From: Fibrobacter sp. UWR3
Lineage (GTDB): Bacteria > Fibrobacterota > Fibrobacteria > Fibrobacterales > Fibrobacteraceae
Direction of reading: 5' to 3'
DNA: 64,000 nucleotides
Assembly: GCF_900143055.1 (NCBI RefSeq)
Contig: NZ_FRCW01000009.1
Coordinates: forward strand, 62,001-126,000
Shown here: in pieces, positions 22,914 through 28,936 of the stretch
Numbering within the stretch: position 1 is the first letter of the stretch
Layout of the letters: each line of letters opens with the position of its first letter
Position numbers and translations under genes: made by a program
The notes under the pieces: model-generated
Told to the model about the DNA's origin: nothing
Databases searched by the model: none
What the model saw: the letters and a program-made list of their open reading frames with translations, nothing else

Positions 22914-25778
22914 ATGTCTGAAAAAACTCTACTTTTGCTTGACTCCTACGCGCTCGCGTTCCGCATGTTTTACGCCTATTCGCAGAACCCGCTGAAAAAC
23001 AACCAGGGCGAAGAGGTCTCGATGATGCACGGTTACTGGGGTGCGGTGCTCCGCATTTTGGCCCAGCACAAGCCGACGCACTTTGCGATTGCGCGCGACG
23101 TGGCACACACCAAAACTTTCAGGCACGAACTTTACCCGGACTACAAGGCCAATCGCGGTCCCATGCCCGAAGAGATGGCGGCGCAGATGCCGCTATTGGG
23201 CGAAAGTCTGGAAGCGAGCGGAATCCCGCTACTTTCGGAGCCGGGCTACGAGGCGGACGACGTGATGGCAAGTACCGCCACGGCCGCCGTCGAAGCAGGC
23301 TTCGACCATGTGGTGATTTTAAGTAAAGACAAGGACATGTCGCAAATCGTAACCGACAAGATCCATCTTTTCCACCTGACAAAAGGTGCCGACGGCATTG
23401 ACTTCGGTCCGGAACAGGTGCTCGAAAAATACGGGCTCCCACCGGAGAAAATCCGCGACTACCTGGCGCTCATGGGTGACACAAGCGACAACGTTCCCGG
23501 CGTGCCGAAGGTGGGGCCCAAGACGGCCATCCAGTTGCTGAACGATTACGGCGACATGGACAACCTGTATGCGAATCTCGACAAGATTACCAAGAAGGGT
23601 TTGCACGACAATTTGGCGAACAACCGCGAAAAGGCATTCCTCAGCCGCGAACTGGTGACGCTCCAGACCAAGCGCGCCTTTAGCGGAAACTTGGACGCCC
23701 TCGAATACAACGGCCTGCACGTGGATACCTTGGCGCAGATGTTCAAGGACCACGAAATCAACAGTCTGCTTCGCCTGCTTGAGAAGGTCCCGAGCAAGGC
23801 GGGATTCGTGCGGGATGGAGAAGGTGCGGAAGGCCCTTCGGCTAATTCGACAGGCTCATCAACCGGCTCAGGGACCTTAAACGGGGATGCCGCGATTCAG
23901 GCAGCATTCCCGGTTGACGTTCCTCCCCCGTATATTTGCGTTGATACCGACGAAATCTTTGAGCAGATGAAGGCGGAATTTTCCGCATCGTCTTTGATTG
24001 GCGTAGACACCGAAACAGACGGCCTCGACCCGATGCAGTGCGGCCTCGTGGGAATGTGCCTCGCCTCCGCCGACAGCGATGGCAAGGTTGCGAAGGGCTA
24101 CTACATTCCCCTTGCGCACACCGACGAAATCGGGTTCCCGCTCCCCGCGGGCAAGGGCGGCAACTTCGACTTCAACAAGGCGAAGGAGTGGTTCAAGGAA
24201 TTTTTCGCGGGCGCGACATCTCAACGCGCGTTCGTATTCCATAACGCGAAATTCGACTTGCACGTTCTCGCACGCGCATTCAAGATTCCGCAATCCGTTA
24301 TCGACAACGCAAACATCATCGACACGCTCATTGCCGCCTGGATGCTTTCGCCGGGGCAATCTGGCCTCGGGCTCGACAACCAGGTGATGCAGCGCCTGCA
24401 GCACGAGATGATTCCCATCGAGAACCTTATCGGGCGCGGCAAAAACCAGATTACGTTCAACCGCGCGCCAATCAAGGACGCCACCGAATACGGCGCCGAA
24501 GATGCAGTCTACACGCTCCGCCTTTGGAAACCGCTCAAGCAGGAACTCGAAAAGCTCGACTACGTGAAGTATTTCTTCGCGCAGGAGATGCCGCTCTTGA
24601 AGGTACTGTACCAGATGGAATCCGTGGGTGTCGCCATCGATGTTCCGGCCCTCAAGACGCTGGAGCAGGAACTGGCCCGCCGCATCGAAAATCTGGAGAA
24701 AGAAATTTGCGACATGGCCGGTGTCGAGTTCAACATCGGAAGTCCAAAGCAGCTGGGCGACGTGCTTTTCGATACGCTCGGACTCCCCGAAATCAAGAAG
24801 CGCAGTACCGACGCCGTGGTTCTCGAAGAACTCAGCTACAAGGCGCCGCACCCGATTGTCTTTGCCGTCATCGAGTACCGCGAGCTCAAGAAAATGCAGA
24901 GCACCTACATCTCGGTGCTCCCGACGCTCATCAATCCGGACACGCACCGCATCCACACGAGCTTTATCCAGTGGGGTACCGCGACAGGCCGCCTTTCGAG
25001 CCGCGATCCGAACCTGCAGAACATTCCCGTGCGTAGCGACTTGGGTAAGAAGATTCGCGCAGCATTTATCCCGCAGAGTAAGGACAACGTAATTCTTGCG
25101 GTGGACTACTCGCAGATTGAACTCAGAATGCTTGCGCACCTGAGCGGAGACGAAGCACTCATCGAAAGTTACAAGGAAGGCATAGACATTCACGCCCGCA
25201 CCGCCGCCGCGATTTACGGAGTTGACCTAAATGCCGTCACGAGCGACATGAGGCGCGATGCAAAAGTCGTGAATTTCGGCGTGCTCTACGGGATGACGGC
25301 CTTCCGCCTTGCCCGCGACCTAAAAATCCCGATGTCGCAGGCAAGGGATTTTATCGACGGTTACTTCGGGATGTACCAGGGTGTACAGCAGTTTATTGAA
25401 GATACCAAGGCGGCCGCCCACCGCGACGGCTACGTAGAAACGCTTTCGGGCCGCCGCCGTTACATTGCAGGTATCGACAGCAGCGACCGCATGGAATCGC
25501 AGATGGCCGAGCGCATGGCCGTGAATACTCCCGTCCAAGGCTCCGCCGCCGACCTCATCAAGATTGCGATGATTCGCATCCAGAAGCGCATCAACGCCGA
25601 GAACCTCCCGCTCCGCATGATGTTGCAGGTGCACGACGAACTCGTGTTCGAATGCCCCCGCGACCAGGTAGAGGCGATGGCCCAGATGGTGAAATCCGAG
25701 ATGGAAGGCGCCATGCAGCTCAAGGTTCCGCTCGTTGCAAGCGTCGGCTTCGGCGAGAACTGGCTCGAAGCGCACTAA
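22914..25778 (+). CDS. polA: DNA polymerase I
   Basis: 954 residues, fills gaps and removes primers. 5'-3' exonuclease (1-300): LLLDSYALAFRMFYA, YEADDVMAS, LMGDTSDNVPGVPKVGPKTA. A short Gly/Ser/Thr-rich linker follows (about 302-325). 3'-5' exonuclease (about 340-560) keeps its metal ligands: GVDTETDGLD, FHNAKFDLHVL and YGAEDAVYT, so proofreading is likely active. Polymerase domain: TATGRLSSRDPNLQNIPVR, motif A VDYSQIELRMLAH, motif B RRDAKVVNFGVLYG, motif C VHDELVFE. The start ATG has no SD and a -10-like motif lies six bases upstream. A damaged copy of codons 35-54 and the promoter region lies 2 kb upstream. Confidence 0.97.
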   Translation: MSEKTLLLLDSYALAFRMFYAYSQNPLKNNQGEEVSMMHGYWGAVLRILAQHKPTHFAIARDVAHTKTFRHELYPDYKANRGPMPEEMAAQMPLLGESLEASGIPLLSEPGYEADDVMASTATAAVEAGFDHVVILSKDKDMSQIVTDKIHLFHLTKGADGIDFGPEQVLEKYGLPPEKIRDYLALMGDTSDNVPGVPKVGPKTAIQLLNDYGDMDNLYANLDKITKKGLHDNLANNREKAFLSRELVTLQTKRAFSGNLDALEYNGLHVDTLAQMFKDHEINSLLRLLEKVPSKAGFVRDGEGAEGPSANSTGSSTGSGTLNGDAAIQAAFPVDVPPPYICVDTDEIFEQMKAEFSASSLIGVDTETDGLDPMQCGLVGMCLASADSDGKVAKGYYIPLAHTDEIGFPLPAGKGGNFDFNKAKEWFKEFFAGATSQRAFVFHNAKFDLHVLARAFKIPQSVIDNANIIDTLIAAWMLSPGQSGLGLDNQVMQRLQHEMIPIENLIGRGKNQITFNRAPIKDATEYGAEDAVYTLRLWKPLKQELEKLDYVKYFFAQEMPLLKVLYQMESVGVAIDVPALKTLEQELARRIENLEKEICDMAGVEFNIGSPKQLGDVLFDTLGLPEIKKRSTDAVVLEELSYKAPHPIVFAVIEYRELKKMQSTYISVLPTLINPDTHRIHTSFIQWGTATGRLSSRDPNLQNIPVRSDLGKKIRAAFIPQSKDNVILAVDYSQIELRMLAHLSGDEALIESYKEGIDIHARTAAAIYGVDLNAVTSDMRRDAKVVNFGVLYGMTAFRLARDLKIPMSQARDFIDGYFGMYQGVQQFIEDTKAAAHRDGYVETLSGRRRYIAGIDSSDRMESQMAERMAVNTPVQGSAADLIKIAMIRIQKRINAENLPLRMMLQVHDELVFECPRDQVEAMAQMVKSEMEGAMQLKVPLVASVGFGENWLEAH

Positions 25779-25945
25779 GCGACCGTTCGGCTCACACTCC
25801 CGTAAGGCTTCTCCGGCTTCGCCTCACTCCCACCTAAAGGTGGCCATGTACACTAAGCGCTAAAGCGCAAGTGTCCAAAGGTCGCCGACACGACTCGTTA
25901 ATACGAGTCGCTTACGGCTCACCAAGCGCGCGAACTAGCCTACGC

Positions 25946-27382
25946 CTATTCCGCGTCCTTTATGCAACGGACGCTATACGCATCCGTTATCTTGCCTCCC
26001 GAAACGGAGCTAGAAACAAAGTTTGTTTCCTCGCTAGACAAATACAACGCTTCATACTCGTTCAGCGAGCAGTCCTGTGCATACCAGAACCATGCTTCCT
26101 GCGTAGCGCTTCCATACGAGTTCTCTCCATACATGATTCCGCCAGGGAGAGCCGTAAAGCCCAACACATCCGTTCCATTATTGACATTGTCTGAATAATC
26201 TAACCAGCCATCCTTCGCCCGCAAACCACTCTGCGGGTCACCACCCATAAGCACTATAAAATTGTACAACTCAAACCAATCCGATATCGACGGCAAATGC
26301 CAACCCGCAGGGCATACCTGGCTGGACAATTCGCAGGAATAGAAAGAGCCGTAAGCGTCGCACTGTTCTGCCTCATTGCCGTAGCACCAGCGGTTCCCTT
26401 CCAGTTCGGGCTTTGCAACCGAATCCCTGTAGTCCAGGTTTTCAGCCATCCATGTCTGGCCCCAGATGTCAATTGTCTTGTACACCCTGCCGTCGCGCGC
26501 ATCCGTGAACGAGCCATATCCCCATGCGGTCGAATCTATTTTCCAGCCCTCTTCGCCACACACGAAATGCGTATTGTTCACCGTAATTTTCTTACCGTAG
26601 ATATAACTGGTACAGCCTAAATTCAATCGCATTTCCCTTTCCGTGGGCAACCGGAATCCGCCATTCTCGCAAACGTAGACGCGGCCTGCAGCTCCGTTAT
26701 GCTCATCGTGGAACGAGCCGTCGCCATACAGCCCTGTCGCGTTACACTCGTCACGATCATCGTAGGTATCGTTGTAAATCTGCGGAGCCAACTGCCAACT
26801 CCTGAATACGGTACCCCAGGTTTGCTTTTTGCAAACATAGTACTCATCGTTGTACTTTACTGTGGATGTATCGCCTTCCACAAGGCACGCCGTTCCGCCC
26901 AATGACACCATGATGCTGTCCATCCTGGTGCCTTCGCGCCACTTGCCATCCTGGAACACACAGTAGCGGCGCGTCGCAGGGCATCTCAGGACTTCGCCTT
27001 CCTCGTAGTCTGTGCCCAGCAGTATTGAGTCCGCCGTTTCGTCCTCAACATTTTTCCATACGAAATTATCGCACATGTACCACATGTCATTATTAGACGA
27101 TCTTTCCACTGCACCCTGGCGCGCTGCCGTGCAGCCCCGAAATCCCAGCAGGCAATTGGAACTATCTCGTTCGTGCCAGGCTCCGCTCTCGTACACAAAG
27201 CATTGACGCGGAATTGCATTTTCCCTCCACTTGACCTGGCTTTCTTCCCCTACCGTCCAGCTGAAGTCTTCATATTCGTCATTGCTCATCGGAATCCAGT
27301 TCCCGTTCTGGCAGACATATACCGCAATGTCATTGTAGTGGACCGCCGTATTCATGGTCGCATCATTGCAAGGCATGGACAT
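25946..27382 (-). CDS. FISUMP protein, second half cut off by an in-frame TAG
   Basis: 478 residues from ATG 27382, without any signal peptide. Residues 1-320 hold Cys-rich units such as AVYVCQNGNWIP, CFVYESGAWHE, YCVFQDGKWRE and YYVCKKQTWG; then comes a FISUMP domain with DARDGRVYKTIDIWGQTWMAENLDY, RWCYGNEAEQC, CPAGWHLPSISDW, LGFTALPGG and SVRCIKDAE. This is in the same frame as the gene at 27392-28936 and starts only three codons after its TAG. As it stands the product could only be made by reinitiation and would stay in the cytoplasm. More likely it is the C-terminal half of a 996-codon gene broken by a nonsense change. Confidence 0.8.
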   Translation of the reverse strand: MSMPCNDATMNTAVHYNDIAVYVCQNGNWIPMSNDEYEDFSWTVGEESQVKWRENAIPRQCFVYESGAWHERDSSNCLLGFRGCTAARQGAVERSSNNDMWYMCDNFVWKNVEDETADSILLGTDYEEGEVLRCPATRRYCVFQDGKWREGTRMDSIMVSLGGTACLVEGDTSTVKYNDEYYVCKKQTWGTVFRSWQLAPQIYNDTYDDRDECNATGLYGDGSFHDEHNGAAGRVYVCENGGFRLPTEREMRLNLGCTSYIYGKKITVNNTHFVCGEEGWKIDSTAWGYGSFTDARDGRVYKTIDIWGQTWMAENLDYRDSVAKPELEGNRWCYGNEAEQCDAYGSFYSCELSSQVCPAGWHLPSISDWFELYNFIVLMGGDPQSGLRAKDGWLDYSDNVNNGTDVLGFTALPGGIMYGENSYGSATQEAWFWYAQDCSLNEYEALYLSSEETNFVSSSVSGGKITDAYSVRCIKDAE

Positions 27383-27391
27383 GGGGGCATC

Positions 27392-28936
27392 CTAGACGCA
27401 GCGAACAGAAAGGTGCATCGTGCTACCCAGCGTTCTCGCCATGGACACTCCCGTTTTTTGAAATATCATGTAATACGAAAGTTTTTCTTCTATAGAATTG
27501 TAGTAGAATGAACTTGTCCAGAAATGCGTTTTCAACTGTCCGGGAGGAATCAGCGTCATGCCAAACCTTTCAAAGTCCGATGCCTCCAATCCTCCTACAG
27601 ACCTAAACAGCTCATTCCATTCTTCCATGCTCGGCAAGTGCCAACCCGCAGGGCAAGCTTCCTTGGCATCGTCCCAATAATATTCAGAGCTTTCTCCGTA
27701 GTTCAAATCATCGGCCATCCAGTTCTGGATCCCTATTTTGATGGTATGGTAAGCCTGTCCGTCACGGGCATCCACCAGCTTGCCGTAATCGAAGCTTACC
27801 GTATCCTTATTTTCTGTCGTATCCTTGACAACCGTAGTGTCTGTAACACCTGTCGTATCCTTAACACTTGTCGTGTCCTTGACCTGTACCGTATCCGCAA
27901 CACCCGCAGAGTCCTTAACGTCCGTAGAATCCTTACTGTCATCCCCCCTCCTTTCGGGGATCCACTTGCCGTTCTTGCATATAAAGTAAACACCCCTATT
28001 TGCACTGTAGGGATTGTCGTTCAGCCATGCGGCCCCATCCAACGTTGAGTCGCACGCATCGAACCCATAGATTTTCCACCAGAAGGAATCTATGTAAGAA
28101 ACGACCTGCGTACGGAACGTATCGAACTTGCCGTTCAAGCCCTGTTCCACCGCCCAGTCTGCCATATTTGCGGCGGTGCGCCCGTTTTTCCATAGGCCAT
28201 CCTTTTCAAGGTCTTCTGCAAAATCCGTGATTCGCTCAGCAAGTTTCGAGTTTTCCTCGCCATCGTCATTCTTCGTTGCAAGGCCGAACGGGAGTCCGGA
28301 TCCGCCATCCTTCTCCAGACCACCCAGCATAATCACGCTTATCGCTAACAGTGCCGCATTTCCGTCGCCATTGCTATAGATATTCAGGTCTTCGGCCAGG
28401 GCAAAGTCGCCACTGATTCCAAAGGCCCTGAGCACCTCTCGCTCCGCCTGCATTTTCGCTTCCGCGACGGTCAAGCCCTCTTCCCTTACAAGGTAGAGTA
28501 CGCGCAAATATTCCAGGTGCGTAAGCAAGTTCACGTTCGCCGACTTGCGGGCAGTAAGGTCTACCAGCGCATTCAAGGTCACCGTCGCTTTTGATTTTTC
28601 ACCCGTGAGTTCATCGCGGTACGTACCCACGGCCGTAAGCAGTGCATACGGGGATTCGAATTCGCTGAATTCCAGGGAGTAGGTCCCCTCGTCATTCAGC
28701 ACCCCGCCCTCGGAAACATTCCCCACCGGCAGGAGCGTAGTTGCCTCCAGTTCCTGTATGGAAATTTTCGAACCCTTCGAGAACGGGCCCTTCTGCACAA
28801 AGCCCGCGAGCGTTCTTTTTTCGGTATACGGGGAATCCAGTTCTTTGTCGGTACCGCTATCACCGCACGCACCAAGCAAAGCAAACAGCGTCGCATATAC
28901 AAGAGCAGCAAAAAATGTCCGACCAAAATGAATCAT
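27392..28936 (-). CDS. FISUMP lipoprotein, first half, ending at TAG in SVRCV(K)D
   Basis: 514 residues. Signal peptide and lipobox LGAC near residue 24. Residues about 40-250 are the N-terminal domain shared with the two giant FISUMP lipoproteins (LAGFVQKGPF, ANVNLLTHLEYLRV). One Cys unit follows (CDSTLDG...GVYFICKNGKWIP), then a repeat linker of VKDTT-like units, then FISUMP domain one: DARDGQAYHTIKIGIQNWMADDLNY, CPAGWHLPSMEEW, FWTSSF and LSVRCV at a TAG stop. Other FISUMP domains end SVRCVKD; here the Lys codon is TAG and the next codon still reads Asp. The frame stays open for a further 481 codons. Signal, anchor and first FISUMP are intact, so this half may still work. Confidence 0.85.
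   Translation of the reverse strand: MIHFGRTFFAALVYATLFALLGACGDSGTDKELDSPYTEKRTLAGFVQKGPFSKGSKISIQELEATTLLPVGNVSEGGVLNDEGTYSLEFSEFESPYALLTAVGTYRDELTGEKSKATVTLNALVDLTARKSANVNLLTHLEYLRVLYLVREEGLTVAEAKMQAEREVLRAFGISGDFALAEDLNIYSNGDGNAALLAISVIMLGGLEKDGGSGLPFGLATKNDDGEENSKLAERITDFAEDLEKDGLWKNGRTAANMADWAVEQGLNGKFDTFRTQVVSYIDSFWWKIYGFDACDSTLDGAAWLNDNPYSANRGVYFICKNGKWIPERRGDDSKDSTDVKDSAGVADTVQVKDTTSVKDTTGVTDTTVVKDTTENKDTVSFDYGKLVDARDGQAYHTIKIGIQNWMADDLNYGESSEYYWDDAKEACPAGWHLPSMEEWNELFRSVGGLEASDFERFGMTLIPPGQLKTHFWTSSFYYNSIEEKLSYYMIFQKTGVSMARTLGSTMHLSVRCV

Follow-up and report, generated by a model that had tools for sequence, protein, structure and literature searches.

Results

An in-frame TAG within a double-FISUMP lipoprotein gene

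The window analysed here was a stretch of 64,000 nucleotides from Fibrobacter sp. UWR3 (contig NZ_FRCW01000009.1, positions 62,001 to 126,000). On its minus strand a reading frame beginning at 28936 ran through 514 codons to the residues LSVRCV, met a TAG at 27394-27392 and then, beginning with Asp, stayed open for another 481 codons, reaching a second FISUMP domain (Table 1). Apart from this TAG and the terminal TAG at 25948-25946, no stop was found in the translated frame. Both halves matched the profile PF09603 (Fib_succ_major) above its curated cut-off of 33.9 bits, the first with 39.4 bits and the second with 83.9 bits. The original prediction had given these coordinates for the stop and the open frame behind it, had pointed to an ATG 9 bases past the TAG and had described the downstream part as remaining in frame and having no signal peptide; translation confirmed each of these points.

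Table 1. Positions of the split gene, its parts and its neighbour in the window.
Feature	Position	Strand	Evidence
Entire ancestral gene for a double-FISUMP lipoprotein, 996 codons, of which one is an internal TAG	25946..28936	-	one unbroken frame in related copies
Upstream ORF, 514 aa, truncated lipoprotein ending LSVRCV	27392..28936	-	translation; PF09603 39.4 bits
Lipoprotein-type signal peptide, LFALLGAC, lipobox LGA-C, lipid-attachment Cys is residue 24	28865..28936	-	translation; aligned signal regions in relatives
First FISUMP domain, complete to RCV, short of only the last two usual residues	27395..27784	-	PF09603 match; FISUMP C-termini
In-frame TAG; CAG in the nearest relative	27392..27394	-	translation and codon alignment
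AGGA, Shine-Dalgarno-like, sharing bases with the TAG and 7 bases ahead of ATG 27382; found in the intact gene of UBA4375 too	27390..27393	-	
Downstream ORF starting at ATG 27382, 478 aa, lacking a signal peptide; second FISUMP domain preceded by Cys-rich repeats	25946..27382	-	
Region of Cys-rich repeats, conserved in every related copy	26516..27391	-	alignment
Second FISUMP domain	25955..26515	-	PF09603 83.9 bits
polA, convergent neighbour, synteny anchor	22914..25778	+	

FISUMP proteins form a large paralogous family in this organism, with 137 PF09603 matches in the UWR3 genome. None of 58 other FISUMP C-termini stopped directly after RC followed by V, I or L, as all had at least two more residues; TAG served as the terminal stop in 19 of these 58 sampled genes. 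A likeness of the whole gene to the two giant genes at 52-60 kb of the window had also been proposed. Their lengths, 1037 and 974 aa from the first ATG, were as claimed, but each of them carries a single C-terminal FISUMP domain, and in layout they resemble the downstream half and not the double-FISUMP whole gene. AlphaFold2 models built from six-row alignments were poor to middling (pLDDT 49 and 66), and neither had a significant match among solved structures; the top Foldseek matches of the FISUMP model (shallow alignment, pLDDT 66) were C-type lectin folds with E 0.25 or worse. No relative in the PDB was found by sequence search.

A sense codon at the aligned site in all relatives examined

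When the downstream half was searched against 80 Fibrobacter genomes, the clear relatives were seven copies in six other genomes, all of them oriented convergently to polA, like the gene of the window. Two of the copies belong to Fibrobacter sp. UBA4375 (G007; 98% and 78% identity to the downstream half), and the others to UBA7003 (G010; 73%), G019 (56%), G070 (48%), G063 and G020 (45% each). In the five copies from the latter genomes the frame continued unbroken between the signal peptide and the last FISUMP domain; the contigs of the two UBA4375 copies begin inside the gene and their frame was open across the site. The aligned codon was CAG in one UBA4375 copy (G007:C81) and AAG in the other (G007:C82), CAG in UBA7003, AAA in G019, CAT in G070 and AAT in G063 and in G020. 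No stop or gene boundary was found at this site in any of the seven copies. A conserved TAG followed by a separate downstream gene was accordingly not seen in these six other Fibrobacter genomes. Since the region is kept as one gene in all seven related copies, the frame beyond the TAG is a true coding continuation and not a chance frame. A second intact copy of the split gene was not found within the UWR3 genome.

Two further observations were made on the relatives. Both polA-linked copies of the locus in UBA4375 lie on contigs starting at the same NGKWIPER codon, and this metagenome-assembled genome therefore probably mixes two strains. The first FISUMP domains of UBA7003 and G020 were nearly identical and the remainder of the proteins far apart, which suggests domain shuffling between lineages.

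Nature and age of the change

The stop codon differs by one base from the CAG of the nearest copy (G007:C81). Because this copy has CAG, the simplest history would be a single C-to-T transition from CAG (Gln) to TAG. The original prediction had assumed a lysine at the site and a change from AAG. Lysine is indeed typical of the family at this position, but AAG to TAG is probably wrong as the actual change, as the nearest relative has Gln. Over the 438 bases before the TAG the window was identical to UBA4375. After the TAG, 17 synonymous and 10 nonsynonymous codon differences were counted over 480 codons, together with an altered gene end, and the comparison revealed no frameshift or further stop. 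The identity upstream and the undamaged frame downstream together indicate that the nonsense change is very young and that decay has hardly begun. For a change of this age, the intact downstream frame would require no selection.

The differences from UBA4375 were distributed in patches. Following the 438 identical bases, 6 bases differed within the 51 starting at the TAG; none differed over codons 117-340 after the TAG, and many did near the gene end. The chance of a comparable clustering of neighbouring differences around the TAG was approx. 0.004. Thus the TAG may have been brought in with a short conversion tract instead of by a lone point mutation. No donor for the cluster was identified, as the 117-base patch, searched across the genus, matched the UBA4375 copy only. 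The patchy divergence is pointing to a locus touched by recent homologous recombination.

The neighbouring DNA was compared as well. polA was 96.2% identical to that of UBA4375 overall, and its last approx. 450 bases, adjoining the gene, contained no differences. Across 22914-28936 the end of polA and much of the split gene were thereby almost identical to UBA4375, the rest of polA being at approx. 96%. Directly past the split gene, at 25779-25945, lies an interspersed intergenic repeat with hairpins (core of approx. 112 bases, 31 matching places in the genome), which is absent beside the UBA4375 copy. At this repeat the gene ends also differ, with KDAE-TAG in the window and KN-TAA in UBA4375.

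Other stop-split FISUMP genes in the UWR3 genome

Two other FISUMP genes of this genome were found to be split by a single stop, each of them having an intact counterpart in a near relative. On contig C3 a multi-FISUMP gene is interrupted by an in-frame TAG (approx. 228376-228378), where the G064 copy (99% identity) has TCG (Ser); on contig C5 a FISUMP gene is interrupted by an in-frame TAA (approx. 65754-65756), where the G020 copy (91% identity) has GAG (Glu). Across the three breaks there are two types of stop and three parent amino acids, which fits random mutation but neither an altered code nor a dedicated signal; it is this mixture of stops and parent codons that favours random nonsense mutation over recoding. 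Among PF09603 matches, in-frame stops were flagged in 2 of 137 in UWR3, 0 of 126 in UBA7003 and 1 of 110 in G003; the TAG at 27392-27394 falls just outside the profile match and is additional to the two. The idea that stop-split FISUMP genes are in excess across the genome was considered and rejected, the counts being too few.

Termination, reinitiation, readthrough or sequencing error

Taken together, these comparisons make it very probable that the TAG is an ordinary and very recent nonsense mutation in a single lipoprotein gene of approx. 1000 residues, and not a recoding signal. A fresh nonsense mutation was one of the explanations originally offered, and it is strongly supported: each of the seven related copies has a sense codon, the flanks are near-identical and a single transition suffices. 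An error of base calling or assembly, with a sense codon such as CAG in the true genome and the gene intact, would also account for a TAG one base from the codon of the nearest relative and for the intactness of the remaining frame. This is nevertheless unlikely: the same kind of single-stop split occurs in two other genes, the quality of the assembly is high, with 20 contigs and 100% completeness, and the TAG lies among several other differences that are mostly ordinary in kind.

Reinitiation at ATG 27382, also put forward in the original prediction, is physically possible and found no support. Ribosomes would terminate at the TAG and restart to give two separate proteins. The spacing of the ATG from the stop and the AGGA before it would suit such a functional split, and a modest Shine-Dalgarno excess was detected in the genes of the window (at least 4 matching bases in 63%, vs 41% in shuffles). 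However, the uninterrupted gene of UBA4375 contains the identical AGGA and ATG, which would therefore not have arisen for the sake of reinitiation. The two-gene arrangement occurs in none of the relatives, and promoter-like sites in the region were no better than in shuffles. Moreover, the product is rich in Cys and of envelope type but would lack a signal peptide; at 478 residues, such a protein would be expected to stay in the cytoplasm. We therefore regard a functional split as very unlikely.

Programmed or tolerated UAG readthrough, yielding some full-length 996-residue lipoprotein, would be in line with the intact, in-phase downstream frame, and in-frame stops under purifying selection, including TAG/CAG pairs, have been described in other bacteria (PMC7918605). 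The TAG is however conserved in none of the related copies, it is a routine terminal stop of FISUMP genes, the other split genes include another stop, and the retained frame is fully explained by the youth of the change. The suggested search for a TAG suppressor was run, and no tRNA with anticodon CTA was present among the 47 tRNA genes of the genome; TCA and TTA were absent too. RF1 (prfA) is intact (500.6 bits vs a cut-off of 423). For PylS only weak matches were obtained in the genome (at most 32.6 bits vs a cut-off of 178), presumably cross-hits to other aminoacyl-tRNA synthetases. Readthrough by way of a suppressor tRNA, pyrrolysine or loss of RF1 was thereby rejected, and a real readthrough site at this TAG appears extremely unlikely.

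Discussion

In the history favoured here, that of a recent nonsense mutation, the ancestral single gene would have encoded a secreted lipoprotein of approx. 1000 residues, in which a signal peptide and an N-terminal domain were followed by a FISUMP domain, Cys-rich repeats and a second FISUMP domain. One nonsense substitution would then have arisen in the UWR3 genome at the penultimate residue of the first FISUMP domain. Ribosomes would terminate at the TAG and release a 514-residue lipoprotein with the signal, the N-terminal domain and nearly the whole first FISUMP domain, and the repeats and the second domain would be made little or not at all. The truncated lipoprotein may still fold, since its last motif retains Arg-Cys. 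As the genome holds no second copy of the gene, the repeats and the second domain are probably lost from the cell surface. The TAG lies almost exactly where the domain ends, the position at which a stop is least costly, and selection for a shortened product could have been involved. Several large FISUMP surface genes of this lineage might use their single stops to switch expression reversibly over the short term, with readthrough at a low level, and selection for variable surface proteins might maintain this; it is a speculation to which we give hardly any credence.

Where close relatives have a sense codon, a TAG that interrupts a frame and is followed by a long open stretch is nothing out of the ordinary. 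This guards against taking gene decay in a paralogous family of 137 domains for recoding. At most, the split gene would indicate that FISUMP lipoproteins are individually dispensable and fast-changing surface proteins.

A FISUMP protein, Fisuc_2249, was detected in the envelope proteome of F. succinogenes S85 (PMC4619616). With FISUMP proteins (PF09603) the split gene has in common the domain in both halves, the lipoprotein signal and the large paralogous family; what sets it apart is a single chain in which Cys-rich repeats lie between a pair of FISUMP domains, and which a stop now interrupts.

Belinky et al. 2021 (PMC7918605) reported short-lived in-frame stops from the coding genes of bacteria, TAG/CAG pairs among them. 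In that study the stop had to be common to at least two species, whereas the UWR3 TAG was seen in one genome only, and for this reason the argument made there for readthrough does not apply to it. In other respects the likeness is close: a single stop interrupts an otherwise intact gene, the parent codon in the nearest relative is CAG as in the TAG/CAG example of the paper, and the flanks are near-identical, as was reported there for most cases. The split gene thus fits, on the sequences compared, the known short-lived in-frame stops of bacterial genes and is ordinary among them.
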